Shown: positions 51,114 to 64,000 of the stretch, piece after piece
Layout: every line of letters starts with the position of its first letter
Position numbering within the stretch: the stretch's first letter is position 1
NCBI RefSeq assembly: GCF_014201415.1
Contig: NZ_JACHEH010000004.1
Coordinates: forward strand, 186,001 to 250,000
Direction of reading: 5' to 3'
Length of the DNA stretch: 64,000 nucleotides
Source: Chelatococcus composti
GTDB taxonomy: Bacteria > Pseudomonadota > Alphaproteobacteria > Rhizobiales > Beijerinckiaceae
Notes under the pieces: model-generated
What the model was told of the DNA's origin: nothing
The model's database searches: none
The model's input: only the letters and a program-made list of their open reading frames with translations
Translations under genes and position numbers: made by a program

Positions 51114-52496
51114 TCACACCCGTGGCAGCCGCAGGCTGGCGCGCAATCCCCCCTCGGGCGCCACGCCGAGTTCAAGCGCGCCGCCGTAGAGTCCGGCCAG
51201 CTCGCTGACGATGGCAAGGCCGAGGCCGGAGCCGGGCTTGCTCTCGTCGAGACGTCGCCCGCGCTGCACGGCCGCCTGGCGCTCGGCCTCGCCGAGACCC
51301 GGACCGTCGTCATCGACGAGGACGAGGAGAACCGGCGGCTCGCTGCCCGGCACGGCACTGGCGCGGATCCGGACGCGGCTGGCCGCCCACTTGCAGGCGT
51401 TGTCGGCAAGGTTGCCCACCATATCCTCGAGATCCTGCCGCTCGCCGCGGAAGCGCAGGCCCGGCTCGACCTCGAGCGTCAGGGAAAGGCCGCGCCGCTC
51501 ATGGATGCGCTCCAGAGCCCGCACGATGCCGGCGACGGCCGGTTCAACTTCCGTGATGGTACCCAGGGTGCCCGCGAGCGCCGCCGCACGGGCGCGCTCG
51601 AGGTAGTAGTTCACCTGGTCACGCATGACGAGGGCCTGCTCGCGCACCTTGACGGCGAGTGGATCGTTCCGGGCATCGGCCTCGTTGAGAATGACGCTCA
51701 GGGGGGTCTTCAGGGCATGGGCGAGGTTGCCCACCTGGGTGCGGGCGCGCTCCAGGATCTCACGGTTGCTGTCGATGAGGAGGTTGAGCTCGCCCGCGAG
51801 CGGCGCAATGTCGTCGGGGAATGTGCCGGCAATGCGCTCGGCCTCGCCGAGGCGGACGGCGCCGACCGCACGACGCAGCCGCACGAGCGGGCGCAGGCCG
51901 TAGCGCACCTGCAGCAGGGTCGTCAGCCCGAGCACGAGCGCCAGGGTGAGGAAGGTCGCCGCCACGACCAGTTCGAACTGGCGGATATCGCTCTCGATGG
52001 TGTCAGCCGGAGCCGCGACCGAGACGAGGTAGCGCCCCTCGTCACCGAGGTCGATGACACGCTCGACGACGCGCAGCCGGCGCCCGTCCACGCCGTCGTA
52101 ATAGGCCTCGCGGGCATCGCCCTCGCGCGCGGGCGCCCCGAGTTCCGCGAGCGGCGGCAGCCTGCTGCCGAAGAGAGACTTGGAAGCCCGCATCTCCCCC
52201 TTGCTGCCGGGGTCGACGCGGATCACCTGCCAGTACCAGCCAGAGAGGGGCAGGTCGAAGCGCGGCTCGCCGAGAGTGCCGAGCGCCTTGTCGTCGAGCG
52301 GCTCTGGGCCGGCGAGATCGGCAACGATGTCGGTGAGATAGACCTGCAGCCGCTCGTCGAAGGCGCGCTCGCTGGTGCGGCGGTAGACCTGGGACAGCGC
52401 CAGCCCGCCGAGAAGCAGGACGACGCCGGTCCACAGCGCTCCGAGGATCAGCAGACGCGCTGCGATGGAGCGGCGTTCGAAGAAGCCTGTCGGCAC
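51114..52496 (-). CDS. feuQ: Sensor histidine kinase, FeuQ/PhoQ-like
   Basis: A 460-residue two-transmembrane kinase. TM1 is at about residues 13-33 (LLILGALWTGVVLLLGGLAL), followed by a periplasmic sensor (about 34-175), TM2 (FELVVAATFLTLALVLGLTT, about 174-193), HAMP, the PhoQ-type phosphoacceptor motif VGNLAHALKTPLSVILNEAD, and an ATPase domain with N (DNACKWA) and G2 (GSGLGLAIVSELAGLYGG) boxes. Gene order PepSY-regulator-kinase-cycHJKL matches the rhizobial FeuP/FeuQ iron-uptake and osmotic regulation locus. The FeuQ name rests on that synteny and the PhoQ-like motif. It starts 7 bases after the regulator stop codon. Confidence 0.85.
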   Translation of the reverse strand: MPTGFFERRSIAARLLILGALWTGVVLLLGGLALSQVYRRTSERAFDERLQVYLTDIVADLAGPEPLDDKALGTLGEPRFDLPLSGWYWQVIRVDPGSKGEMRASKSLFGSRLPPLAELGAPAREGDAREAYYDGVDGRRLRVVERVIDLGDEGRYLVSVAAPADTIESDIRQFELVVAATFLTLALVLGLTTLLQVRYGLRPLVRLRRAVGAVRLGEAERIAGTFPDDIAPLAGELNLLIDSNREILERARTQVGNLAHALKTPLSVILNEADARNDPLAVKVREQALVMRDQVNYYLERARAAALAGTLGTITEVEPAVAGIVRALERIHERRGLSLTLEVEPGLRFRGERQDLEDMVGNLADNACKWAASRVRIRASAVPGSEPPVLLVLVDDDGPGLGEAERQAAVQRGRRLDESKPGSGLGLAIVSELAGLYGGALELGVAPEGGLRASLRLPRV

Positions 52497-52503
52497 GGGC
52501 CGG

Positions 52504-53169
52504 CTACTCCGCCGGTGGCTCGAGCCGGTAGCCGAGCCCCCTCACGGTCTGGATCACATCCACGCCCAGCTTGCGCCTCAGGCGACCGATGAAGACCTCT
52601 ATCGTGTTGGAATCGCGGTCGAAATCCTGGTCGTAGAGGTGCTCCACCAGCTCCGTCCGCGAGACGACCCGCCCGGCATGATGCATGAGGTAGGCGAGAA
52701 GACGGTATTCGTGCGAGGTCAGCCTCACGGGCTCGCCCCGGACAGTCACCCGGCTCGCCCGCGTGTCGAGGCACACCGGCCCGCAGACGATCTCGCTGGA
52801 GGAATGGCCGGCGGCACGCCGCAGCAGCGCGCGCACCCGCGCCAGCACCTCCTCCATGTGGAAGGGCTTCGTCACATAGTCGTCGGCGCCGGCATCAAAT
52901 CCCTGGACCTTGTCGCTCCAGCGGTCACGGGCCGTCAGGATCAGCACGGGCATGTCCCGCCCCGCGCGCCGCCACTTCGTCAACACCGACTGGCCGTCGA
53001 GTTTCGGCAGGCCCATGTCGAGAATCACGGCGTCATAGGGCTCTGTCTCGCCCAGGAAGAGCCCTTCCTCGCCGTCGTAGGCGCGGTCCACCACATAGCC
53101 CGCTTGCACGAGCGCGTCGGCGAGCTGCCTGTTGATGTCCCTGTCGTCCTCGACAACCAAGAGCCGCAC
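52504..53169 (-). CDS. feuP: OmpR-family response regulator, FeuP-like
   Basis: A 221-residue regulator. The receiver starts RLLVVEDDRDINRQLAD, the phospho-acceptor Asp lies in VILDMGLPKLDG, and the switch Lys is in YVTKPFHMEE. The winged-helix C-terminal domain contains VRLTSHEYRLLAYLMHHAGR and NTIEVFIGRLRRKLGVD. The GTG start at 53169 has GGGGGAG 6 bases upstream and fits the receiver N-terminus exactly. A long frame upstream to 53574 reads through the PepSY gene out of frame and is rejected. Paired with the kinase at 51114. In Rhizobium FeuP controls high-affinity iron uptake, and in Sinorhizobium osmotic adaptation. Confidence 0.88.
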   Translation of the reverse strand: MRLLVVEDDRDINRQLADALVQAGYVVDRAYDGEEGLFLGETEPYDAVILDMGLPKLDGQSVLTKWRRAGRDMPVLILTARDRWSDKVQGFDAGADDYVTKPFHMEEVLARVRALLRRAAGHSSSEIVCGPVCLDTRASRVTVRGEPVRLTSHEYRLLAYLMHHAGRVVSRTELVEHLYDQDFDRDSNTIEVFIGRLRRKLGVDVIQTVRGLGYRLEPPAE

Positions 53170-53191
53170 GCGCGCTCCCCCATCCCGGCGC

Positions 53192-53503
53192 TCAGCGCCC
53201 TTCCAGAACCTTGCCGCTGCCGCCATCCACGACGACGCGCATGACGCGGCCGTCGCGGCGCAGGACCGAGATGCGGTAGACGTAGCCTCCGCCCTGCCGG
53301 CAGAGCTCCGCCCGCACCACCTCGCCACCCGAGGCGGCGTCCCGGGCGGCCGAGACGGCACGGGAAGGCGCCACCACCCCCCCCTGTGCCACGGCGACGC
53401 GCGTCTCCTCCGGCGAAAGGCAAGCTCCCTGCGCCGCAGCCTTGAAGCAGGCGAGTCCGGCAAGAAGCGCGATCGCCGCAAAGATGGTCCTAGCTGCCCA
53501 CAT
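53192..53503 (-). CDS. Small exported PepSY-domain protein, FeuN-like in position
   Basis: A 103-residue protein with a signal peptide (MWAARTIFAAIALLAGLACF, cut near AAA/AQG) and a single C-terminal PepSY-like domain (CRQGGGYVYRISVLRRDGRV, then VVVDGGSGKVLEG). It is 22 bases upstream of the regulator gene on the same strand. Small periplasmic proteins in this position (FeuN in Sinorhizobium) restrain the kinase FeuQ. That this protein does so is inferred from position and size only. An ATG at 53536 would lengthen the leader by 11 residues; ATG 53503 gives the better signal peptide. Confidence 0.75.
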   Translation of the reverse strand: MWAARTIFAAIALLAGLACFKAAAQGACLSPEETRVAVAQGGVVAPSRAVSAARDAASGGEVVRAELCRQGGGYVYRISVLRRDGRVMRVVVDGGSGKVLEGR

Positions 53504-53575
53504 GGAGCCGAAATATGACGGCCGAGGACTGAACATTCCCTGAATGCCTGGCAGCTGCAGCCGCGCCGAACCACC

Positions 53576-53785
53576 TCATCGCCCGAGGCGGTTGGTCGCG
53601 ATCACGCGGAAGACGGTGGAGACGACGAAGCTGACACCGGCGACGATCTGCAGCAGCGCATCCGTAAACGCGCCGGTGTCGATGCCGTCGGTCTCGACGC
53701 CGACGAGCGACAGGAGAATGGCGACCATGCCGACGGCATTGGCCCAGACCGTGCGGCTCATGAAGATCGACTTCGTATCCGACAT
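53576..53785 (-). CDS. Holin-like protein from an internal start within the endolysin frame
   Basis: An in-frame ATG at 53785 begins MSDTKSIFMSRTVWANAVGM, a 69-residue protein with two hydrophobic segments (AVGMVAILLSLVGVET and LLQIVAGVSFVVSTVFRVIA). A strong ribosome site, AAAGGAAGAG, lies 2-4 bases before it, which would be unexpected if the sequence were only the tail of the endolysin. Similar stand-alone holins occur next to GH108 genes in related bacteria. The fused product and the separate holin may both be made. It is listed separately because of this site; no experiment is known to me. Confidence 0.55.
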   Translation of the reverse strand: MSDTKSIFMSRTVWANAVGMVAILLSLVGVETDGIDTGAFTDALLQIVAGVSFVVSTVFRVIATNRLGR

Positions 53786-54355
53786 GTCTCTTCCTTTCCC
53801 TGCTGTGTGACTGGACATCGTTCCGGGCGTCGCGGCTGCCTGTGCCGCGAGCTGCTTCGCCCGCTTCTCGACCTGCTCCACCCTCCGGCGCCAGCCGCGG
53901 CGGAAGAAACGGAAATGGCGCAGCTGCTCGAGGAAGCCGAGGCGCGCCGCGCAATAGCGCTCGATGAGGGGGATGGCGGGCTGCGCCGCCACCGCCGCCA
54001 GCGTCACCGGCCCCACGCGCCCGTCGGCAGCCACGCCCGCCACCTGCTGGAGCAGACGTACGGCACGGGCCGGGCCCGAATGGACCGCCGCGTCGAAAAC
54101 CACGAGGTCGACGCCCGCAGGCAGCTCATCGGCGCGCACGGCGAGCCAGTAGTGCTGCCGGTAGATCACCGCCGCCTCGTGCCGCGTCAGCGCCATCACC
54201 TCGGCCAACGCGACGTCACGGCCCCGCACGCGGCGCAGCGTGGCCCGTGTGATGCCGAACTTGGTGGCGCCGCCCGGATCGAGCGGGTGATCCACGTAGC
54301 CGCCCTCGAAGGCGAAGACGGATTCGAGCGCCTCGTCGAAACTGGCGATGGCCAT
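53576..54355 (-). CDS. GH108 endolysin fused to a holin-like membrane segment
   Basis: A 259-residue protein. Residues 1-170 form a glycoside hydrolase 108 muramidase with catalytic motif FAFEGGYVDHPLDPGG (Glu in EGGY) and KFGIT, followed by the peptidoglycan-binding segment GVAADGRVGPVTLAAVAAQP. Without any stop codon the frame then runs through a short linker (GTMSSHTAGKGRDMS) into a 69-residue part with two hydrophobic segments that looks like a small holin. The gene lies directly downstream of GTA gene g15, so it probably lyses the host or drills the peptidoglycan in GTA release. The start is ATG 54355, with GAGAGAAG upstream. Confidence 0.8.
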   Translation of the reverse strand: MAIASFDEALESVFAFEGGYVDHPLDPGGATKFGITRATLRRVRGRDVALAEVMALTRHEAAVIYRQHYWLAVRADELPAGVDLVVFDAAVHSGPARAVRLLQQVAGVAADGRVGPVTLAAVAAQPAIPLIERYCAARLGFLEQLRHFRFFRRGWRRRVEQVEKRAKQLAAQAAATPGTMSSHTAGKGRDMSDTKSIFMSRTVWANAVGMVAILLSLVGVETDGIDTGAFTDALLQIVAGVSFVVSTVFRVIATNRLGR

Positions 54356-54382
54356 GGGCTTCTCTCGCAAGGAGGGGCAGGC

Positions 54383-57300
54383 TCAACGCACCTCGACCAC
54401 GCCGCGCCGGGCAAAGCCGCGGCCGACGACGGCGCTGAGCTGGGCTACGGCGATGTCGAGGCGCCGCTGGGGCTGGCCGAAATCGGCCAGCTCCTGTTCC
54501 ACTGCATAGAGGGCGCGCTGCTCGGGCGTGCGCAGCCGGCGCACCGGCTCACCGTCCCGGAACACGTCGATCTCGTAGGCCTCCACGTCCTCGCCGAGAG
54601 GCACCTCCGCGACATCCCAGCCGTCGCCGTTCAGGCGCGTGCGCCGGATGAAGGAGATCTCGATCCCCGCAGCGAGGCGTCGTGCCCTGAGGTGCACCGG
54701 CGCCAGGGGCCGTAGCGCGACGTCCGTCGCTTGTGCGCCGAAGGCGGCATAGGCGGGGTCGCCGTGGTCGAGCGTCGCCGGGCCGGCGCGGTAATAGGCA
54801 TGGCGGCCGATGTCGTCGAGCCGGCTCGTCAACGGCACGAGCGCCTGGTCGAGCAGCACGACGCTCGCCCCTGCCGGGACGGGCCGCGTCGCCAGGAGAT
54901 CCGAGCCGGCGAGCCCGCGCAGCAAGCAGCCGATGCGGTAGACATCAGCCTCGACAAGCTCGGCCTCGGCTGCGGCCATGATCTCCCATGCGCCGTCGGG
55001 GCCCCGCACCGCCATGAGGTTGGCGCCGGAAAGGGCCGCGCCCTTGCCGACGCTGGTGAGCCCCCCCCCGTGGAGCCGCAATGTCAGCCGGCTCTGCCGG
55101 TCCCAGCGCCAGACAGGCCCCGGCGGCAGCAGATCGAGCGTCTGGCCGACGACGGCCGGAAGAGCCGTTTCGGCGAGCGGGGCAAAGCTCGCCCCGTCCT
55201 CCGACCGCCAGACGACCACCCGCCCCGGCCACGGGTCCGCGACCACGGCAAGATGCTGGAGGACGGGCGGATCCTGCACGACCGCGGGCAGGTCGAGCAC
55301 CACAACGTGGGGACGGCCCGGCAGCAACGGCGCCGGCTTCGGCGGTGGCGGCTGATGGACGGCAGGCAGCGAGAAAACAGAAGGCTCGATCCTGCGGGCC
55401 GTGGCGCGCCGGGCCGTGCCATCCGTGAGCTGCGTGATCTGATAGGTTTGCGGCGCCGGCAGCACCGGCAGGGCAACAATGTCGCCGACCTGGAGGCCCG
55501 CGAGCCGCGGCGCCAGCGAGAACTCGGCTGTCTCGCGCCCCACCCAGAGATCCTGCAGCCAGATCTCGGCGAGCCTCATCGCCTCGCCGGCACGGATAAC
55601 AAGGGCGAGATCGGCGCTCGCCTCACGCCGGCTCATCCCCTCCAGCCGTCGCGACCGGGCCGCGGCGCGACGGAAATCGCGCTCGCTATCGCTGTAGCCG
55701 ATGCGCACCTCGCGCGGCAGCTCGGTCTCCTGCTGGCGCCGCAGGGCGACGAGTGCGCCGCTGTCGTCGGGCACGAGATCGTCTTCACCGAGGCTCGCCG
55801 CCACGGGCCGGGCGTGCATGGCGAAATGCAGCACGCCGCCACTGGCGAGCGCATTGAAGCCGAAGGCTTGCGCCAGCGGCTCCAGCGCCTGGCGGGCCGA
55901 CATCGTCCGGTCCACCACATAGCCATCGACCATGCCGTCGATATCGAGCCGTTGCGGCAGGTCGACGGAAAAGTCGCGCAGTATGGCCGCAACCAGCCTG
56001 TCGAGCGGCACGCTCTCCAGCCGCCCGGTCAGCCAGTGGCCGGTCTGCCAGTTCTCCCCGTCGGACCAGACGCCGAGCATCTGCGGAAAGGCCGGGAAAG
56101 GGCGCGCATCCCACGCCCAGACGAAGGCATGGCCGGGCGCGACCATCGGACCGCCGTAGACCGGCGAGACGGGATTTGCCGAACCGGGCTCGCCATAGAC
56201 CGCGAGCATCGCCTCGAGCCCCCGAATCTGGATGAGGTCGTCACGCCCTCCCGAGGAGAAGGGCGGGAGTCCCCCGTCGACCGATTTCGGATCGGGAAAG
56301 ACGTTGGGCGCATTCGTGCCCTTGTCAACGGCGGGCACCCCGAACTCCGTCAGCCAGACGGGTTTGGACCTCGGCTGCCAGGCCGTGGGACCGGTCTCGA
56401 CACCATCCACGCGTTCGATGTGCTCGTTCGCCCACCAGCCGGCCAGATCCTTCTGCCGGAACAGCCACGGCTTGCCGTAGGCTCCATCCGTGATGGGGCT
56501 GCGGCGCTGCGCGATGCGATCCTCCTCGCTCGCGTAATACCAGTCGTACGCCTCGCCGGCGGTCAGCCGGCTGCGCAGGTAATCGCGGTCGTAGATGGAG
56601 CGGGCCTCGGCCGCATCGCCATGGCCGGTGCCGTCGCGCCAGTCGCTCAGCGGCGGGTAGAAGTCGATCCCCACGGCGTCGATGGCGGGTGATGCCCAGA
56701 GGGGATCGAGCGGGAAGCGCACCTCCCTACCGCCCTCAAGCACATGGGCACCGTATTCCGTCCAGTCGGCCGCATAGGTGATGGCCGTGCCCTCGCCGAC
56801 AATTGTCCGCACCGCCTCCGCCAGGGCGATGAGGGCCGATGTTGCCGGATAGTGGCCCGAGGCGGAGCGCAGCCGCGTCAGGCCGACGAACTCCGAGCCG
56901 ATGACGAAGCCATGCACGCCGCCCGCCGCCACCGCAAGATGGGCGTAATGCAGGACCTGCCGGCGCAGGGACCACTGCGGCGGCCCGTGATAGGAGACGA
57001 CATCCCCCGAACGGGTGAAATGGTGTGGCTGGGCGTTACCGAAGAAAGCCTGCACCTGAGCCTCGACCGCCGGCCCTCCGTCGGGCGAGCCCGGCCGGCC
57101 CGGGGCCGGATGGCATGTGAGGCGGCCTCGCCAGGGATAGGCCGGCTGCCCGGCGGCTCCCGTCCAGGGATCGGGCAGACTGTTGCCGGCCGGCACGTTT
57201 ATCATGACGAAGGGATAGAGCACGACCTCCAGGCCGCGCGCCTTCAGGTGCCGGATGAGCGCGACCACGCTGTCGTCGGAGGGCGTGCCGCCGTAGGCGG

Positions 57301-58312
57301 GCCGGCCGTTGACATGGCTGACAACGCGCGCCGTCCCGCGTGTGAGGGAGGAAACCCGCCACGGCAGCAGGCCGCTTCCGTCCTCGGTCGTCTTGTCTGC
57401 AGCCTCGACACGCGGCGCGATCGTGCAGGAGCCGGCGCGCAGGTCGTCCCCGAACCAGCTCACCACGAGCGCGACGCGTTCCAGGTTGGGGCACAGCGCC
57501 GTCAGCATGTCGAGCGAGGCAACGACATCGACGCCGCTCATGAGCTGATGGCGGTTTTCCGACTGGCTCGCACCGAGGCCCACCACCTGCGTGATATGCC
57601 TCGGCATGTAGCCGAACTCACTCGCGCCGGGGATGAGGTTGATGGCACGGACGGCGCTGCCGAGCCCCTCCACCGGACGCACCACCTCGAACGAGAACTG
57701 CGGAATGCGGTTGCCATAGGGCCCGAGCGGCAGATGCTCGAACACCACATAGGCGAGGCCGCGGTAGGCGGGCGCGTTCTGCGCCCCCTCCTTGGCGATG
57801 ATGAGCGGATCGGGCGCCTGGCTCTCGCTGCCGCAATGGACGCGCATGTTGACCCGCGTGAGGTCGATCTCCTTGCCGTCCGCCCAGACACGGCGGACGA
57901 AGGCGATGGGGCCCTCGCACAGGCCGATGGCGATGTTGGCGTAGTAGCTGTAGGTCGTCTCGATTGTCGTCGTCTTCGGCGACGAGCCCTTGCCGCCGGA
58001 CGAGGGCGTGCGCGTGACGGTGGTTACCGCCTCCTCCTTCAGGCGTGTCGCCCAGATCAGCTGTCCGCCGACGCGCGCCCGGCCGTAGACACGGGGGATG
58101 GGCGCCCCCTCCGTCGAGGTAATGCCCTCGACATCCTGGAGGCGCGGCCCTTCGACGACGCGCCGGGTGCCGCCGCCCGCGCGCGAGATGAGGGCGCTGT
58201 CGATGGCCGCCCCCGCAAGCCCTCCGAGCGCCCGCCCGACGATGGCGCCGACGGGCCCGCCGACAAGCCCGCCCAGGGCCGAGCCGGCAACCTGCAGGAC
58301 GATCGTGGCCAT
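54383..58312 (-). CDS. GTA host-specificity/tail-tip megaprotein (g15 homologue)
   Basis: A 1309-residue protein, the usual size of RcGTA g15. It begins MATIVLQVAGSALGGLVGGP, a glycine-rich segment seen in tail-assembly proteins. The middle (about residues 400-720) holds the GTA TIM-barrel-like region (GFVIGSEFVGLTRLRSASGH, AVGIDFYPPLSDWRDG, KPVWLTEFGVPAVDKGTNAP). A phage-tail-3-type domain comes next (about 780-950) and fibronectin-like segments near the C-terminus. It forms the baseplate megatron/tail fibre base that contacts the recipient cell. Stop of g14 and start of g15 overlap as TGATG. Confidence 0.93.
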   Translation of the reverse strand: MATIVLQVAGSALGGLVGGPVGAIVGRALGGLAGAAIDSALISRAGGGTRRVVEGPRLQDVEGITSTEGAPIPRVYGRARVGGQLIWATRLKEEAVTTVTRTPSSGGKGSSPKTTTIETTYSYYANIAIGLCEGPIAFVRRVWADGKEIDLTRVNMRVHCGSESQAPDPLIIAKEGAQNAPAYRGLAYVVFEHLPLGPYGNRIPQFSFEVVRPVEGLGSAVRAINLIPGASEFGYMPRHITQVVGLGASQSENRHQLMSGVDVVASLDMLTALCPNLERVALVVSWFGDDLRAGSCTIAPRVEAADKTTEDGSGLLPWRVSSLTRGTARVVSHVNGRPAYGGTPSDDSVVALIRHLKARGLEVVLYPFVMINVPAGNSLPDPWTGAAGQPAYPWRGRLTCHPAPGRPGSPDGGPAVEAQVQAFFGNAQPHHFTRSGDVVSYHGPPQWSLRRQVLHYAHLAVAAGGVHGFVIGSEFVGLTRLRSASGHYPATSALIALAEAVRTIVGEGTAITYAADWTEYGAHVLEGGREVRFPLDPLWASPAIDAVGIDFYPPLSDWRDGTGHGDAAEARSIYDRDYLRSRLTAGEAYDWYYASEEDRIAQRRSPITDGAYGKPWLFRQKDLAGWWANEHIERVDGVETGPTAWQPRSKPVWLTEFGVPAVDKGTNAPNVFPDPKSVDGGLPPFSSGGRDDLIQIRGLEAMLAVYGEPGSANPVSPVYGGPMVAPGHAFVWAWDARPFPAFPQMLGVWSDGENWQTGHWLTGRLESVPLDRLVAAILRDFSVDLPQRLDIDGMVDGYVVDRTMSARQALEPLAQAFGFNALASGGVLHFAMHARPVAASLGEDDLVPDDSGALVALRRQQETELPREVRIGYSDSERDFRRAAARSRRLEGMSRREASADLALVIRAGEAMRLAEIWLQDLWVGRETAEFSLAPRLAGLQVGDIVALPVLPAPQTYQITQLTDGTARRATARRIEPSVFSLPAVHQPPPPKPAPLLPGRPHVVVLDLPAVVQDPPVLQHLAVVADPWPGRVVVWRSEDGASFAPLAETALPAVVGQTLDLLPPGPVWRWDRQSRLTLRLHGGGLTSVGKGAALSGANLMAVRGPDGAWEIMAAAEAELVEADVYRIGCLLRGLAGSDLLATRPVPAGASVVLLDQALVPLTSRLDDIGRHAYYRAGPATLDHGDPAYAAFGAQATDVALRPLAPVHLRARRLAAGIEISFIRRTRLNGDGWDVAEVPLGEDVEAYEIDVFRDGEPVRRLRTPEQRALYAVEQELADFGQPQRRLDIAVAQLSAVVGRGFARRGVVEVR

Positions 58313-58755
58313 CAGTCGGTTACTCCCGGGAAGCGGAAGGCGAAGGCAAGATGCCGGCGCCACCAGCCGCACAGCGGCACCTCGGCAACGGCGGCGCCGT
58401 CATGGGCGTGCACCATGCTCGCGGCATCCGTCATGATTGCCGCGTGCTTGGCCGGCAGGTGCGCCCGCCAGCGGAAGAGGAGGACATCCCCCGCCCCCGC
58501 CTGCCCGATCGGGACACGGACGAAATGGCGCTCGCCGGCCTCTGCCATTGTCTCGCGCAGGCCGGCCTCGGCCCAGTCGGGCGCGTAGGGCGGCACTGCC
58601 TCGGGCTCCGGCCCCACCACCTCGCGCCACACCCCGCGCACGAGGCCCAGACAGTCGCAGCCGACGCCCTTGAGAGAGGCCTGGTGGCGGTAGGGCGTGC
58701 CGATCCAGCCACGGGCCGCGGCGACGATGGCGGCCCGTTCGATACCCGCTCTCAT
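58312..58755 (-). CDS. GTA NlpC/P60-family cell-wall peptidase (g14 homologue)
   Basis: A 147-residue NlpC/P60 peptidase. The catalytic Cys is in GVGCDCLGLVRGVWRE (near residue 37), the His in PAKHAAIMTDAASMVH, and the following polar residue in the VPLCGWWRRH region. It cleaves peptidoglycan stem peptides at the tail tip to let DNA into the recipient. The start at 58755 (MRAGIERAAIV) overlaps g13 by 4 bases (ATGA). The longer frame to 58953 is shadow. Confidence 0.92.
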   Translation of the reverse strand: MRAGIERAAIVAAARGWIGTPYRHQASLKGVGCDCLGLVRGVWREVVGPEPEAVPPYAPDWAEAGLRETMAEAGERHFVRVPIGQAGAGDVLLFRWRAHLPAKHAAIMTDAASMVHAHDGAAVAEVPLCGWWRRHLAFAFRFPGVTD

Positions 58756-59648
58756 CGAAAGAAGCTCCCGCCGTCGTGGCCTTCCCCCTCGCGTGGATAG
58801 GCGACGACGAAGTCGTTGCCCGGCATGTGCGGGAAGCCGCGGAAGTTCACGACGTTGGCGAAGCGGTCCCGGCAGGTGGCGTGGCGCTTGTCGCAGCCCG
58901 CCGTCACGGTGAAGGCGTCGCCCGCGCCAATGGTCGCGGCGGGCGCTTGCCACAGGGTGAGCACGTGCTTGTGCCCATCGCGCCGGTGGTGTTTGACCTC
59001 CACTGCGGCGGCGCCGGCATTCGCTCCGGCCGTCCAGACCAGCCGACCGCCGGTAAACCAGCCGTCGGCATAATCGCCGAGGTCGCCCGCCTGCACGAGG
59101 AGCCGCCCGTCCGTCGCCGCCACGCTGCCCTCGGCGCAGAAGGCAGGCAGCGTCAGGTCGATGCCGCAGCGGGCATCGCCCAGGTCAGCGGCGCAGGCGA
59201 GCGAATAGAGCCTCCCCTGGGGCTGGTCGAGACGGTGCATGATGCCGCGCAGCTCGGCGAGAAAGGCGTGGTCAGTGCGCTTGATCTCGCCGATGGAGGC
59301 GACGTCGAGGAGAAGGCGTTGCCCCTCCGGATCGGCCCAGTTGACCAGCCACGTCTCGACCGTGGCGTCGTCGTAAAGCCCACTGACGATATCCGCCTCG
59401 GTCAGGGACAGGGCGCTCAGCGCGCCGGCAACCTCGCTCGTCGCAACGGCAAAGCCCAGCTCCGCCGAGATCTCCGATGGCTCGAGACCGCTGCAAGCGG
59501 CGAAGGTGACGCCAGCGAAGACGAGATCGCGGTCGTGATCGGTGAAGCCGAGAACCACGCCGTCACGGCGCAGCAGCTTCCAGCAATGGCACAGCGTTGT
59601 CGCGCCCTCAGCCATGTGCCCTGCCAGGGCCGGAGCGATGTCGCGCAT
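58752..59648 (-). CDS. GTA tail hub protein, DUF2163/BR C-terminal family (g13 homologue)
   Basis: A 298-residue protein with the conserved DUF2163 N-terminus (GATTLCHCWKLLRRDGVVLG, then FTDHDRDLVFAG). The C-terminal phage-BR domain contains CDKRHATCRDRFANVVNFRG and PGNDFVVAYP. These cysteine-rich segments are characteristic of GTA g13, an iron-sulfur-binding hub component. It overlaps g14 by 4 bases and is followed upstream by g12. Confidence 0.92.
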   Translation of the reverse strand: MRDIAPALAGHMAEGATTLCHCWKLLRRDGVVLGFTDHDRDLVFAGVTFAACSGLEPSEISAELGFAVATSEVAGALSALSLTEADIVSGLYDDATVETWLVNWADPEGQRLLLDVASIGEIKRTDHAFLAELRGIMHRLDQPQGRLYSLACAADLGDARCGIDLTLPAFCAEGSVAATDGRLLVQAGDLGDYADGWFTGGRLVWTAGANAGAAAVEVKHHRRDGHKHVLTLWQAPAATIGAGDAFTVTAGCDKRHATCRDRFANVVNFRGFPHMPGNDFVVAYPREGEGHDGGSFFR

Positions 59649-59671: not shown

Positions 59672-60313
59672 TCAGGGAACGATCTCAATCACCGGCAGAC
59701 TGGGGATGGCGCCTGCCGAGAAGGCCGCGCAATCGATCTCCAGCCGGTCGGTGTCGAAGCGGACCGGAACGTCGAACAGGTACCCGGCCGTCACAACCGC
59801 GCCGGAGGCCGGGACGCGACTCTCGGCGAAGGTGACGACGCCCGTCGTCGCGTCGCAGGAGAAATCAAGGCCGGGGGTGAGCTCCGTCCCGTCGATGGCG
59901 ACGCGGACGCTGCCATCGACGGGCTTGAGAATCGGCCGTTCGTAGGGCGCATGGGCACCGCCGTACCGCTTGAGGAGCTGGAAGGTGGCCTTCTGCCCGT
60001 CGCCGGTCCCGATCACCTGGTCCGTCGCCGCGGGTTCCTGCGACGGGAGACAGGACTTGAAATCAAGGCGGTCGCGCCAGCGGAAGCCGTAAAGCCGCCC
60101 GCGCCTCTCCTCGAAGAAGGCGAGCGCTGTCGCTAACGCGTCGAGCGTCTTGATGCCGTAGCCTGCTTCATAGCGCCGGCGGGAATGATACCAGCGCGCG
60201 TTGCGGCTCTCGCGCCCGGAGCCGAGGAGGACGATATCCGTGCGCCGCTCGGGACCGCCGCTGCTTGCAAGCGAGATATCGATGGGAAACCTGACTTCGT
60301 GGAACGCGCCCAT
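59672..60313 (-). CDS. GTA distal tail protein, DUF2460 family (g12 homologue)
   Basis: A 213-residue protein of the DUF2460 family. The N-terminus FHEVRFPIDISLASSGGPER and the segment RNARWYHSRRRYEAGYGIKT, followed by FFEERRGRLYGFRWRD, are typical. The C-terminal strand-rich half ends PVRFDTDRLEIDCAAF. It forms the distal tail ring between tube and hub. The start at 60313 has GAGGAAG 5 bases upstream and leaves a 10-base gap to the tape-measure gene. Confidence 0.92.
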   Translation of the reverse strand: MGAFHEVRFPIDISLASSGGPERRTDIVLLGSGRESRNARWYHSRRRYEAGYGIKTLDALATALAFFEERRGRLYGFRWRDRLDFKSCLPSQEPAATDQVIGTGDGQKATFQLLKRYGGAHAPYERPILKPVDGSVRVAIDGTELTPGLDFSCDATTGVVTFAESRVPASGAVVTAGYLFDVPVRFDTDRLEIDCAAFSAGAIPSLPVIEIVP

Positions 60314-60323
60314 CGCGTCTTCC

Positions 60324-60899
60324 TCAAAGCGCACGCTGGCCGCGGGCGACGGCGCGAGCGAGCGCCGCCGTCACCTGCGCTTCCGAGCGCCGGAAACTTT
60401 CGGCATCGTTGGTCGTGATGTTGACTGTGACCTGCGTCGGCGCAGCGCCGCGGCCACCCGTGGCCCGCACGCCCAGCCTGCCATCCGGCCCGCGAGCGAG
60501 CGGCATGATCGCCTCGGGGCCGCGCTCGCCCATCAGCCCGAGCCCGCCGGCGAGCGGGAAGTAGGTCGGCCTTGCGACGACGCCCCCCTCGGCGAAGGGC
60601 TGCACGAGGCCGCGCGAGATCACGCCGCCTTTCGCAAAGGGCAAGACGCCGGACAGGCCCCCGAGCACGGCCTCGATGCCGCTGCCCAGCGCGCTCTCCA
60701 GCGGCTTCGTCGCAGCCCGCAACGCGATGTCGACCAGACGCTGGCCGATGCTGCGCAGTACATCCTCGAAGCGCCGGCCCTCTACCACACTCGACGAGAA
60801 GGCCTTGACGAGCGTGGCACCAAAGCTCGCCGCCAGCCGGTTTGCCTCGCGCAGGGGATCGAGGTCGATGCCCAAATCCTGCGAATGGTCGCTCGTCAT
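60324..60899 (-). CDS. GTA tail tape measure protein (g11 homologue)
   Basis: A 191-residue protein with the lambda-type tape-measure C-terminal pattern: LVDIALRAATKPLESALGSG, the glycine-rich FAKGGVISRGLVQPFAEGGV and GERGPEAIMPLARGPDGRLG, then a VNITTNDAESFRRSEAQVTA ending. It is short, as in other GTAs, because the GTA tail is short. It may also act as a pore component in DNA entry. It overlaps the upstream chaperone gene by 4 bases. Confidence 0.9.
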   Translation of the reverse strand: MTSDHSQDLGIDLDPLREANRLAASFGATLVKAFSSSVVEGRRFEDVLRSIGQRLVDIALRAATKPLESALGSGIEAVLGGLSGVLPFAKGGVISRGLVQPFAEGGVVARPTYFPLAGGLGLMGERGPEAIMPLARGPDGRLGVRATGGRGAAPTQVTVNITTNDAESFRRSEAQVTAALARAVARGQRAL

Positions 60900-61144
60900 G
60901 ACACGCTGGCTCCTTCCGTGGTCGAAGTGTCGGGGAAAGCGCGCATCAGCGCGTCGAGATCCGCCCGCCCCGGCGCGGCGGTGCGGCCGATACCGAGTGC
61001 ACGTGCGGCCGCTGCTATCTCGCGCGGTGTCAGACGCCAGAAGGCGTCCGGGCCTAGCCGCAGGACGCCGAAGCCGAAGGCCTGCACCACGTCCCAGGGA
61101 AAGGGCTGGCAGGCGCCAGCCTCGGGGCGCCCTGCGGCGGTCAA
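60896..61144 (-). CDS. GTA tail assembly chaperone-like protein (rcc01693 family)
   Basis: An 82-residue protein with the family core FPWDVVQAFGFGVLRLGPDA and FWRLTPREIAAAARAL. It matches the small gene found between g10 and g11 in Rhodobacter GTA (called g10.1). It presumably works with the 110-residue protein just upstream to chaperone the tape measure. It overlaps both neighbours by 4 bases (ATGA-type coupling). Confidence 0.88.
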   Translation of the reverse strand: MTAAGRPEAGACQPFPWDVVQAFGFGVLRLGPDAFWRLTPREIAAAARALGIGRTAAPGRADLDALMRAFPDTSTTEGASVS

Positions 61145-61473
61145 GGGTTTGGCCGGGGCCCCTCCCCGGCTCCGAATGTCACTGCGAGCAGCCGGGCGAC
61201 GATGGAGGCGAGGTTCTCGAGGCCTTGCCCGATTGGCAGCGCCGCGACCTCCCGGTCGCTCATCTGCCGCCCTCCGCCGCGGATACCGGCACCGAGGAGG
61301 CGGATCATGTCGCCGGCAGACAGGCGGCCGCGCGCGAAGCGCTCGCCGAGGGCCGCGAGATCCTCGACGCCGAAGGCCTCTTCCAGCTCGGCCAGCGCCC
61401 CGAGCGTCAGGCAGAGCACAAAGGTTTCGCCACCGATGTCGGCCGTGATCTCTCCGCGTCGTGCATTGGCCAT
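61141..61473 (-). CDS. GTA tail assembly chaperone (g10 homologue, GTA gp9/TAC-11 type)
   Basis: A 110-residue protein beginning MANARRGEITADIGGETFVL, with LGALAELEEAFGVEDLAALG and the helix GQGLENLASIVARLLAVTFG. This layout is typical of the small GTA protein encoded between the tail tube and tape-measure genes. A role as tail assembly chaperone is from family knowledge. It starts 7 bases after the tail-tube stop codon. Confidence 0.88.
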   Translation of the reverse strand: MANARRGEITADIGGETFVLCLTLGALAELEEAFGVEDLAALGERFARGRLSAGDMIRLLGAGIRGGGRQMSDREVAALPIGQGLENLASIVARLLAVTFGAGEGPRPNP

Positions 61474-61480
61474 GGTTGCC

Positions 61481-61888
61481 TCACAGGGCCGAGAAGGTGA
61501 GCGCGCCGGCGGATTCCAGCGCGAGCTCGAAGGTGACCTCGCCCGCGTGGTCGCCGCGATACTCGAGGGCCGTCACCTGAAATGGTCCCTCGATGGTGCC
61601 GAAATCCGGCACCACGACCTGCCAGTGCCGGATGTCGTCGTCGAAGAACAGCTCGCGCACATAGGCGTCGGATGCCTCGTCCTTGAAGATGCCCGAGCCG
61701 CTGATGCCGGCCCGGCGCACGCCGGCGCCGGCGAGCAGCTCGCGCCAGCGACCGGCCGATTCCGCATGCGTGACGTCAACCGTTTCGGCGTTGAATGCGA
61801 TCTGCCGGGCCCTGAGCCCGGCGACCGTGACAAAAGTGCCGCCGATGTCGAGCTTCAGCAGCAGGTCCTTGCCTTTCTGGGCACCCAT
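61481..61888 (-). CDS. GTA major tail protein (g9 homologue, TP901-1 family)
   Basis: A 135-residue tail-tube protein. It begins AQKGKDLLLKLDIGGTFVTV, with NAETVDVTHAESAGRWRELL and the central GAGVRRAGISGSGIFKDEAS loop, then a strand-rich C-terminal part (ALEYRGDHAGEVTFELALES). Pattern and length match TP901-1-type tubes in GTAs. Many copies stack to make the tail tube. A 37-base gap separates it from g8 upstream. Confidence 0.9.
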   Translation of the reverse strand: MGAQKGKDLLLKLDIGGTFVTVAGLRARQIAFNAETVDVTHAESAGRWRELLAGAGVRRAGISGSGIFKDEASDAYVRELFFDDDIRHWQVVVPDFGTIEGPFQVTALEYRGDHAGEVTFELALESAGALTFSAL

Positions 61889-61925
61889 GTTGTGGTCTCC
61901 GGTGGATCGGTCGGTGATGGCGTCG

Positions 61926-62342
61926 TCACGGCGCCGGCAGGCGCTCCGTCACGGCTCTCAGGCGCAGCGTCACGCGCGCACGGTCCGCCCGCTCGTCGCG
62001 GCGGGCCTCGGTCTCGACGGTGCGGATGGCGACGAGCCGGTGGCCGTCGAGCGGCAGCGAGGCTTCGCCCAGCAGCGCATCGATACGGCCGGCGCTTTCG
62101 AGTGCGCTGCGCGCGCTGCCGCCCCGGGCCCAGACGGTGAGCGTGATGTCGTGCTCCTCGCCGGCGTCGGTGCCTGTCGACCAGTCGCGAGCCTTCCAGG
62201 GGCCGATGACGCAGTAGAGGCCGTCGAGGCCCCGCGGCACCTCGTCGAAAATGCGCGCCCCCCCGAGGAGGGCAACGAGGTCAGCGTCGGCGGACAGGCG
62301 GGACACGACCGCTTCCCGCAGCGCGATGTAGGACGGCTTCAC
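61926..62342 (-). CDS. GTA tail terminator protein, DUF3168 family (g8 homologue)
   Basis: A 138-residue protein with the DUF3168 pattern: SYIALREAVVSRLSADADLV, GARIFDEVPRG, YCVIGPWKARDWSTGTDAGE and ITLTVWARGGSARSALE. It caps the tail tube at the head-tail joint. The GTG start at 62342 overlaps g7 by 4 bases. The longer frame upstream is shadow. Confidence 0.88.
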   Translation of the reverse strand: MKPSYIALREAVVSRLSADADLVALLGGARIFDEVPRGLDGLYCVIGPWKARDWSTGTDAGEEHDITLTVWARGGSARSALESAGRIDALLGEASLPLDGHRLVAIRTVETEARRDERADRARVTLRLRAVTERLPAP

Positions 62343-62674
62343 GGCGTTACCTCCTGCAGCGTGCATACGAGCCGGCGACGGCGGCCGTCGGGGTCGACGG
62401 CGGACAGCACGGCGAAGGTCCGCCCCCCGAGGGCGAGGCGGCAGGAGCCGTCGACATCGGCGCGCCAGCGCATCTCCGCCCGGAAACGTGCGGCGAGATG
62501 GCGCCGGTCGGCCCGCTCCTGCTCGTCGTCGCCCGCCGTCACACCGTCGAGCGAGCACCAGAGATGCCCGTCGACCTTGAAGGCGCGGTCGACGCCGCCG
62601 GTGCCGTCCGGGCTCTCATTCGGCCGCAGCAGAGCCGCCCGGTGGCGCAAGCGGCCAAGCGCAAGGGCGGCCAT
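62339..62674 (-). CDS. GTA head closure/adaptor protein (g7 homologue)
   Basis: A 111-residue protein. It begins MAALALGRLRHRAALLRPNE, with WCSLDGVTAGDDEQERADRR and the ending LVCTLQEVTP. It matches phage head-tail joining proteins of the SPP1 gp16 fold. It sits between g6 and g8 in the canonical order; start ATG 62674, one base after the g6 stop codon. Confidence 0.85.
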   Translation of the reverse strand: MAALALGRLRHRAALLRPNESPDGTGGVDRAFKVDGHLWCSLDGVTAGDDEQERADRRHLAARFRAEMRWRADVDGSCRLALGGRTFAVLSAVDPDGRRRRLVCTLQEVTP

Positions 62675-62675
62675 G

Positions 62676-63230
62676 TCACAACCTCGTCCGTCGCCAGGGC
62701 GCGAGAAGAGCGACGACTTCCGGCGGCAGAGGCGGCTTGTGCGCGACCGGCTCATCGCCCCTGTTCTCGAACCAGTGGGCCACCAGCAGGCGGATTGCCT
62801 GGCGCAGCGGACCCGGCACGTCATCAGCCCCGCCGAAACCCAGCCGCACGTCAACCTCGACGGCGCGTGGCGGGGCCGCCAGCCGGTCGAAGTAGAGGGC
62901 ATCGCGCTCCACCGTCGCGGCCGGCGAGACGACCCCTTCCGGCACGGCGAGCTCGGCGCCGGCCATGTCGCGGCCGCGCACCGACAGGACGGAGTCGACC
63001 GGTGCCATCGGCAGGCGCAGCACGCCCGCTCCCGGCCACGCCTCGAGCACGAAACGCCAGGTCTGGGAGACGAGCGCCAGCCCGCTTACGGCTTCGACAG
63101 TCAACCGCGCGGAGGTGACGAGCGCCGCGAGGAGCCCGTCCTCCGCCGTATCGTCAAGACGTACGAAGGCCCGCGCCTCGGCGAGAGCCACTGGCTCCTC
63201 CGCAGGCGGCTGCAGCAGGATGGGGGTCAT
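62676..63230 (-). CDS. GTA head-tail connector (g6 homologue)
   Basis: A 184-residue protein of the phage gp6/HK97 connector family. It begins TPILLQPPAEEPVALAEARA, then VRLDDTAEDGLLAALVTSAR, a helix bundle typical of adaptor proteins, and ends PPEVVALLAPWRRTRL. It makes the ring between portal and tail. It is the first GTA gene in this window on this strand; GAGG just before its ATG at 63230 is the ribosome site. The next upstream gene expected, the capsid (g5), is absent at this position. Confidence 0.88.
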   Translation of the reverse strand: MTPILLQPPAEEPVALAEARAFVRLDDTAEDGLLAALVTSARLTVEAVSGLALVSQTWRFVLEAWPGAGVLRLPMAPVDSVLSVRGRDMAGAELAVPEGVVSPAATVERDALYFDRLAAPPRAVEVDVRLGFGGADDVPGPLRQAIRLLVAHWFENRGDEPVAHKPPLPPEVVALLAPWRRTRL

Positions 63231-63314
63231 GAAAACCTCAAAATGGTGCGCGCCCTCTTGCGCCGATCGAAGCCGCCGCTAAGGCTGGCGCGACCGACGA
63301 AAGGACTTTGGTTC

Positions 63315-64000
63315 GTGAAACGGCGCTCGCCTCGCGCCATCCGGCGCCTCATCCCGACGATCCTCCTGGCCGCCGGCCTGCTCGGCCCTTTGCATGGGCC
63401 GGCCGAAGCCGTGATCGGTGGGCGGGAGGACGCCGGGCCGCTCGCGCGGGCGAGCGTCATGGTGCTGAACGCGCGCGGCGGCGTGTGCAGCGGCATCGTC
63501 CTCGCACCCGACGTCGTGCTGACGGCCGCCCATTGCGTGACCGGCGCCGAGGCCTACCGCGTGCACTATCGTGACAGGACCGGCGAACCTGTGCTGATCA
63601 CGCCACGTGAGATCGTCGTCCACCCGCGCTACGACCGCGACGCCATCAAGGCCCGCCGGCGATCGGTGGACATCGCCCTGGTGCGGCTGCCGCAGCCGCT
63701 GCCGCAGTCCTTCGCGACGGCAGCCCTGTCGCGTGCGGCGCCGCCGCGGGAAGGCGCGCGGCTGACGATCGGCGGCTGGGGCGTTGCCGCAGAGGGGGAC
63801 CACCGCAGCACCGGCACCTTCCGCGTGCTCGAGATGACGGTGGTGGAGCCCTACGGGCCGGGACGCATCCTCGTCTGGCTGGCGAACGGCACGAAGCGCC
63901 GTGCCGGCGCCTGTGAAGGCGACTCCGGCGGCCCCATCGCCGACGCCGGGGGCCTCGTCGTCGCCGTGACCGGCTTCGCCCGCGGCGAGGGCCGCGACCG
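63315..64000 (+). CDS. Secreted trypsin-like serine protease (3' end outside window)
   Basis: An S1-family protease, 228 residues visible. A signal peptide (VKRRSPRAIRRLIPTILLAA and following, cut after AEA) is followed directly by VIGGREDAG, like an activated trypsin N-terminus. The catalytic His is in TAAHC, the Asp in SVDIALVRL and the Ser in CEGDSGGP. It is probably periplasmic or secreted. GTG 63315 has AAAGGA about 10 bases upstream; an in-frame ATG at 63243 would add 24 basic residues and has no site. It runs divergent from GTA gene g6 in the place where the capsid gene normally is. Confidence 0.85.
   Translation, partial: MKRRSPRAIRRLIPTILLAAGLLGPLHGPAEAVIGGREDAGPLARASVMVLNARGGVCSGIVLAPDVVLTAAHCVTGAEAYRVHYRDRTGEPVLITPREIVVHPRYDRDAIKARRRSVDIALVRLPQPLPQSFATAALSRAAPPREGARLTIGGWGVAAEGDHRSTGTFRVLEMTVVEPYGPGRILVWLANGTKRRAGACEGDSGGPIADAGGLVVAVTGFARGEGRD

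Follow-up and report, generated by a model that had tools for sequence, protein, structure and literature searches.

A secreted-type serine protease gene lodged in the gene transfer agent cluster of Chelatococcus composti

The closest described relatives of the locus reported here are the RcGTA-type gene transfer agent (GTA) clusters of Rhodobacter capsulatus and Caulobacter. To our knowledge, the R. capsulatus GTA has no protease between g5 and g6. Here, in a 64,000-nucleotide stretch of Chelatococcus composti DNA (contig NZ_JACHEH010000004.1, positions 186,001 to 250,000; G000:C4:186001-250000 in our numbering; hereafter the window) and its continuation, we identified a cluster that shares the g1–g15 order and families of those GTAs, including matches to the megatron, hub and distal tail models, but differs from them in that a gene for a secreted-type serine protease separates g5 from g6 and runs on the other strand. 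At a probability of about 0.64, we take this protease to be a host envelope or extracellular (secreted) enzyme with a selective value of its own, lodged in the GTA.

Two further systems bear comparison. The LypABC CARD-NLR-like GTA lysis system likewise connects trypsin-like peptidase domains with a GTA; however, in the accessible passages of PMC13236601 the Lyp proteins combine several domains (CARD, ATPase, endonuclease) and lypABC is treated apart from the core cluster, whereas the window protease is a single-domain protein of 261 amino acids with a signal-like N-terminus and lies inside the cluster. S1 peptidases (Pfam Trypsin) share with it the fold, the triad, GDSGG and the VIGG N-terminus; unlike trypsin, the window protease has no Asp at position 189, and the solved structures listed are 18–25% identical to it. 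A protease between g5 and g6 is not mentioned in the accessible passages of PMC13236601, PMC10783043, PMC3338782, PMC7947584, PMC7363004 and PMC9836097, nor in those of PMC6821227, PMC10883770, PMC11409702, PMC3616915, PMC3610622 and PMC8265664, most subscription papers lying outside the search.

An intact cluster interrupted by a protease gene

The original prediction described g15 to g6 as complete and canonical, reported a trypsin-like gene running the opposite way beyond an 84-base gap, and stated that g5, g4, g3 and g2 do not follow, so that the head genes would lie beyond an inserted gene, be located elsewhere (a split GTA) or be lost. The continued sequence and Pfam searches showed that a block of head genes begins right past the protease, on the same contig and on the strand of g6. 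All four genes follow directly past the window edge, and they had appeared to be missing because the window ends too early. The features of the cluster are as follows; positions past the window end are counted on from window base 1, and some open reading frame starts are uncertain, with limits as listed.

68743-69234, − strand (that of g6): g1-like gene (homologues at the equivalent place in other GTA loci)
67500-69113, − strand: g2, terminase (PF03237/PF17289)
66267-67478, − strand: g3, portal (PF04860)
65334-66128, − strand: g4, prohead protease (PF04586)
64108-65391, − strand: g5, HK97 capsid (PF05065)
63315..64000, cut by the window end and continuing to 64100, + strand: GTA-embedded S1 (trypsin-fold) serine protease (Pfam Trypsin)
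63231..63314, no strand: gap of 84 bases between the divergent g6 and protease starts
62676..63230, − strand: g6, head-tail connector (TIGR02215 148 bits, cut-off 39; PF05135; ATG start 63230)
62339..62674, − strand: g7, head completion (PF05521 E 7e-17)
61926..62342, − strand: g8, tail completion (PF11367 E 3e-25)
61481..61888, − strand: g9, major tail protein (PF06199 E 2e-47; TIGR02126)
61141..61473, − strand: g10 (position and homologues at the equivalent place in other GTA loci)
60896..61144, − strand: small rcc01693-family gene after g10 (TIGR02216 68.7 bits, cut-off 56.1)
60324..60899, − strand: g11, tape measure (RcGTA_tape 193 bits, below the cut-off of 220)
59672..60334, − strand: g12, distal tail protein (TIGR02217 298 bits)
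58752..59648, − strand: g13, baseplate hub (TIGR02218 312 bits)
58312..58953, − strand, start uncertain: g14, NlpC/P60 peptidase (TIGR02219 197 bits)
54383..58372, − strand: g15, megatron (NF048004 1760 bits, cut-off 800)

Indeed, NCBIfam and Pfam matches on one shared strand confirmed that g15 to g6 are all present in canonical order within the window. NCBIfam curated cut-offs were exceeded by g15, g14, g13, g12, the rcc01693-type gene, g9 and g6, and about 46 N-terminal positions of the RcGTA_tape model found no alignment in g11. Pfam and PHROG searches with the g1-like gene returned no match. The protease gene runs on the + strand (Pfam Trypsin E 3.5e-24), and the gap stood as described, with the g6 ATG at 63230 and the protease GTG at 63315. 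As in RcGTA-type clusters, capsid, prohead protease, portal and large terminase form one block, and g1 to g15 are co-directional in canonical order, here interrupted by the protease gene. The window therefore covers the tail end of an RcGTA-type head-tail cluster that is intact, as judged from its genes.

Because the head genes directly follow the protease in the g6 direction, the arrangement amounts to an insertion; the GTA is neither split nor lost. Consistently, whole-genome searches mapped a capsid, a portal and the only terminase match (Terminase_6C) of the genome to this locus, ruling out a split or lost head module and turning a false lead into a comparative system. Outside the window, another contig (C3:112690-116099) carries a further HK97-type capsid–portal pair; its capsid is 51% identical to g5, and the pair is separate from the GTA and probably a prophage or a remnant.

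Conservation and origin of the insertion

A protease beside GTA genes had been called unexpected. This is a fair description, but the gene is no chance neighbour, because the arrangement is conserved in the window's family and also occurs in two other families of the order. In a family sample of 99 genomes, the protease was matched in 81 and the capsid in 71. With GTA-type capsids defined by at least 55% identity (fragments counted, lower-identity matches not counted), 64 genomes had one, and 60 of these also had a protease match. In 59 of the 64 the protease lay within 20 kb of the capsid, without exception at the 3′ side of g5 and encoded on the opposite strand; the capsid match of G038 is no more than a fragment at a contig end, and its protease sits on another contig. 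Among the 35 genomes lacking a GTA-type capsid, 21 carried the protease and 14 had neither gene. Those 21 include G031 with GTA tail genes and G023 with g6 beside the protease, both cut by contig ends, and G097 with a g6 remnant.

Reading of the loci placed the protease between g5 and g6 in 78 of the 90 with both, and no protease there in 12, some genomes occurring twice; the G039 protease, at a contig end, falls outside the loci read. The slot holds two copies in 55 of the 78 loci and one in 23, all opposite to g5. Other genes also occur in the g5–g6 slot, namely a PemK-type toxin gene (L096:11144-11539), a flavin reductase gene (L187:10834-11454) and, just below the cut-off, a gene for a Nal1-like protein (L163:12020-13129). 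A scan of named relatives, covering the best 80 of at least 392 confirmed loci, gave the order tail-protease-head in 58, tail only in 3, head only in 2 and no GTA in 17, several of the 17 sitting on contigs too short to show more. Among the matches listed, the relatives included Methylobacterium, Methylorubrum, Bosea, Microvirga, Enterovirga, Chelatococcus, Alsobacter, Lichenibacterium, Methylocapsa and Ancylobacter, among others.

Beyond the family, an order sample of 160 genomes (family codes up to f52; capsid E 1e-80, protease E 1e-20) yielded a capsid match in 114 and a protease match in 21. The 21 comprise five genomes of f1, the family of the window, plus four from each of f20, f35, f36 and f50. 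The protease stands next to GTA genes in f20 (G117, G162, G227, G197) and in one f36 genome (G174), while three f36 genomes of genus g78 carry it elsewhere. In the four f50 genomes no GTA accompanies the protease, which is flanked by the regulator pair on one side and YcgN-PBP on the other, and the f35 matches are weaker and partial. Capsid matches came from 43 families of this sample, and in 3 of these the loci read have the protease adjoining the GTA. A class-wide search at E 1e-25 found it in 3 of 240 genomes, all of the window's family.

The g15 side of the window cluster carries the following genes:

53576..54370, − strand: GH108 lysozyme-like gene after g15 (PF05838 E 1.7e-28)
53192..53536, − strand: PepSY protein, GTA-site flank (PF03413; perfect TTCA-N7-TTCA box nearby)
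52504-53220, − strand: response regulator, GTA-site flank (PF00486/PF00072)
51114-52496, − strand: histidine kinase, GTA-site flank (regulator-kinase pair beside the GTA in other families)

From their context, we infer that the regulator and kinase (51114..53220) are a feuPQ-like pair and that the PepSY gene is feuN-like. The C-terminal part of the GH108 lysozyme-like protein appears hydrophobic by eye and may be a membrane anchor.

These flanks made it possible to place the insertion. Eight GTA loci from other families (L204-L211) have no protease and a g5–g6 gap of 90–195 bases. On the g15 side, the regulator-kinase pair was present in five of six other-family genomes (G108, G110, G132, G139 and G141, not G102); towards g1, G108, G110 and G141 had both YcgN and PBP and G102 had PBP alone, and neither was found within the examined stretch of the remaining four loci. 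In three genomes (G108, G110, G141), both flanks thus enclose a GTA whose g5 and g6 are neighbours and which lacks the protease; the protease gene therefore inserted into a GTA that was already present at this site. Its divergence tracks that of the capsid: pairwise protease and capsid distances correlated with a Spearman coefficient of 0.80 over 64 loci (at most 0.28 in 200 permutations), as compared with 0.63 for protease and g12 and 0.65 for g5 and g12.

The protease and its upstream gap

The protease gene, with its GTG start, encodes a protein in which Pfam detected Trypsin-type domains only and no CARD or ATPase; the scanned neighbours are GTA genes. The combination that marks LypABC, a CARD and ATPase fused to or beside the peptidase, is thus absent from the window locus. 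The S1 triad His73/Asp119/Ser204 is invariant in 22 of 22 aligned copies. A loose triad motif check missed 6 of 126 copies, whose sequences showed intact residues in variant surroundings. The specificity residue Asp189 of trypsin is replaced by Gly198 in at least 90% of the 22 aligned copies (numbering counted back from Ser), and trypsin specificity, a preference for Lys or Arg, is therefore not expected. An AlphaFold model (mean pLDDT 87.6, residues 1–30 low) matched S1 proteases in the PDB, with 50 listed structures and crab collagenase first.

By eye, the N-terminus is signal-like and ends in AEA|VIGG, and the protein is probably secreted. Many relatives have an AxA-type motif immediately before VVG or IVGG, so that, judging from S1 chemistry, a signal peptidase cut could yield the active N-terminus. 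A phage origin of the gene as a moron was rejected: the protease had no match in 50,697 phage records at E 1e-3 and no PHROG, and viral contigs carrying it were mostly GTA clusters. Of 34 viral-contig loci with the protease profile, 22 (L221-L242) hold GTA genes beside the protease and are GTA clusters filed as viral contigs, which a viral sequence collection therefore includes too; the other 12 have distant or partial protease matches only.

The 84-base gap had been expected to hold a separate promoter for the tail module. This did not find support. A block CTTGCG-N16-CTAAGG (63257-63284) followed by AAAGGA (63300-63305) is kept in the three genomes of the genus that were aligned (a fourth, G018, was not in the alignment), which suggests a candidate protease promoter that could read towards the protease. 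A consensus scan around the protease gene detected no promoter and no terminator. TTAA-N7-TTAA, which we take to be a CtrA-type site, occurred upstream of the protease in none of 123 loci. For promoters we used CTTGAC-N17-CTATAT, presumably the alphaproteobacterial consensus. Over 29 gaps, its mean best score was 7.07 towards the protease, 6.48 towards g6 and 6.82 in shuffles; such scores near shuffles give no support for a consensus promoter. The letters of that consensus were not found in the accessible passages of PMC3616915, which do give TTCA-N7-TTCA as a candidate FeuP-type box. For Methylobacterium, our literature search returned no published promoter or protease link.

A perfect FeuP-type box lies in the window at 53530-53544, near the PepSY gene start. 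At sites without a GTA, 14 of 33 loci (12 distinct; shuffles 0.000) had a perfect box in the 220 bases preceding the protease, as against 0 of 82 GTA-bearing loci. The box lies near the protease there because it points to the PepSY gene and the GTA in between has been lost; we therefore rejected it as an element of the protease, real as it is.

Role of the protease with and without the GTA

The favoured reading, a host enzyme with its own selective value, draws on the loci that keep the protease without a GTA ("GTA-less" refers to the locus, not to the whole genome). Thirty-three such loci were labelled, 29 of them distinct (L133, L170, L176 and L183 are second copies of the same contig). The distinct loci kept both flanks in 10 cases, the regulator only in 10, YcgN only in 5 and neither in 4. 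Thirteen of the 33 (10 distinct) place the protease between the regulator and YcgN or PBP, the regulator being 9 kb off in L180. Remnants persist in L159, which keeps g5, and in L088 (G097), with a piece of g6. GTA-less copies also fall inside GTA-bearing genera in the protease tree, as with Bosea psychrotolerans beside Bosea sp. OK403 and with Methylobacterium platani and its relatives. The repeated changes between GTA-bearing and GTA-less states on that tree speak for this reading, as does the similar constraint on GTA-less and GTA-bearing copies; triads are intact in GTA-less copies too.

In this account, an ancestor acquired, at the g5–g6 junction and in reverse orientation, a gene for an exported-type serine protease. 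The precursor would be exported and cut by signal peptidase after AEA, as predicted, exposing the VIGG N-terminus that the S1 fold needs, and the enzyme would need no further activation, whether in the periplasm or outside the cell. Given the Gly at the Asp189 place, it is expected not to prefer Lys or Arg, and a preference for small or hydrophobic residues is predicted. It would be retained for a host function in the envelope or outside the cell and not as a particle part, its place within the GTA being inherited. One gene inside a domesticated phage cluster is here passed on together with the cluster and can outlive it, and relatives with the full cluster, a remnant or the protease alone (for example in Methylobacterium and Bosea) can show which genes of the GTA locus the host needs.

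Several points weigh against this reading or limit its evidence. Export, cleavage and substrate of the protease are predictions. Since the GTA-less loci were found by the protease, they give no retention or loss rate. The tree (118 rows, quick method; identical proteins entered once, reducing 126 to 119, with L195 left out, as were the frameshifted L077 and L108, whose copy is intact) has seven loci near contig ends labelled "?" and two labelled "remnant"; it contains 13 changes between GTA-bearing and GTA-less states when these rows are left out and 16 when GTA-less rows are set against all others, at least seven of them forced by starred branches, but it is a tree of the protease and not of species, and such counts cannot separate gain from loss. 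The median ratio of non-synonymous to synonymous substitution (dN/dS), 0.205 in 12 GTA-less pairs vs 0.243 in 147 GTA-bearing pairs, comes from pairs that are not independent, three of the 12 involving copies located elsewhere (L197-L199). A frameshift interrupts the GTA-less copy L077. Four family genomes (G017, G042, G057, G078) carry a GTA in which g6 adjoins g5 and lack any protease match in the genome, so the protease is dispensable in some lineages. The protease goes with the GTA-type capsid (60/64 vs 21/35, raw counts across related genomes), which full independence would not need. Finally, whole-locus loss also occurs: in 6 of the 14 family genomes with neither gene, kinase and PBP are only 2.1–5.5 kb apart (about 2.1–2.6 kb in G089, G073 and G035, about 5.0–5.5 kb in G021, G061 and G092). 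They are 15 kb apart in G028; for the remaining seven genomes, the two genes fall on different contigs or lie far apart, or the PBP was not found.

A role in the GTA life cycle is possible but doubtful. The protease would be exported before or during lysis and loosen the envelope for release, or trim surface proteins of the recipient; the GTA-less copies would be leftovers or serve cells that only receive particles. Supporting such a role, position and orientation are kept in all 59 family genomes with both genes together, protease divergence is in step with g5, and its presence goes with that of the GTA in the family sample. According to the accessible passages of PMC13236601, GTA lysis in Caulobacter needs the trypsin-like peptidases LypA and LypC. 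However, constraint is similar in GTA-less genomes, only 3 of 43 capsid-matching families of the order sample have the protease next to the GTA, four family genomes have the GTA alone, and the protease is transcribed against the GTA genes. A combined history, in which a GTA lineage took up an exported protease as a release or reception accessory and GTA-less descendants keep it for a recipient-side or envelope function, is about as tentative, perhaps slightly more so; if true, these loci would document GTA loss in natural stages, with a single gene surviving.

Less likely by some way is an envelope-signalling enzyme that degrades, or is held back by, the feuN-like PepSY protein and so tunes an FeuPQ-type pathway, whether or not a GTA lies between. 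A PepSY match (loose cut-off, E 1) between regulator and protease in 22 of 33 GTA-less loci is consistent with it, as are the perfect boxes upstream of the protease in 14 of the 33, but the box points to the PepSY gene and occurs in the presence of the GTA too, none of 82 GTA-bearing loci has a perfect one upstream of the protease, and five other-family genomes combine the regulator pair and the GTA with no protease at the site. More improbable still is a neutral passenger, retained solely through conservation of the GTA gene order. The toxin, reductase and Nal1-like genes in the slot show that other genes land there as well; dN/dS near 0.2 with or without the GTA, the intact triad in 22 of 22 aligned copies and the presence of the protease at the site after both flanking GTA modules are gone argue against it. 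A split or degraded GTA, suggested by the window end only, can be dismissed, as the head genes adjoin the protease and the C3 pair is separate.

In four loci (L109, L221, L222, L228), a g11 match was observed on the g2–g3 side of the head genes, away from its usual place in the tail module.

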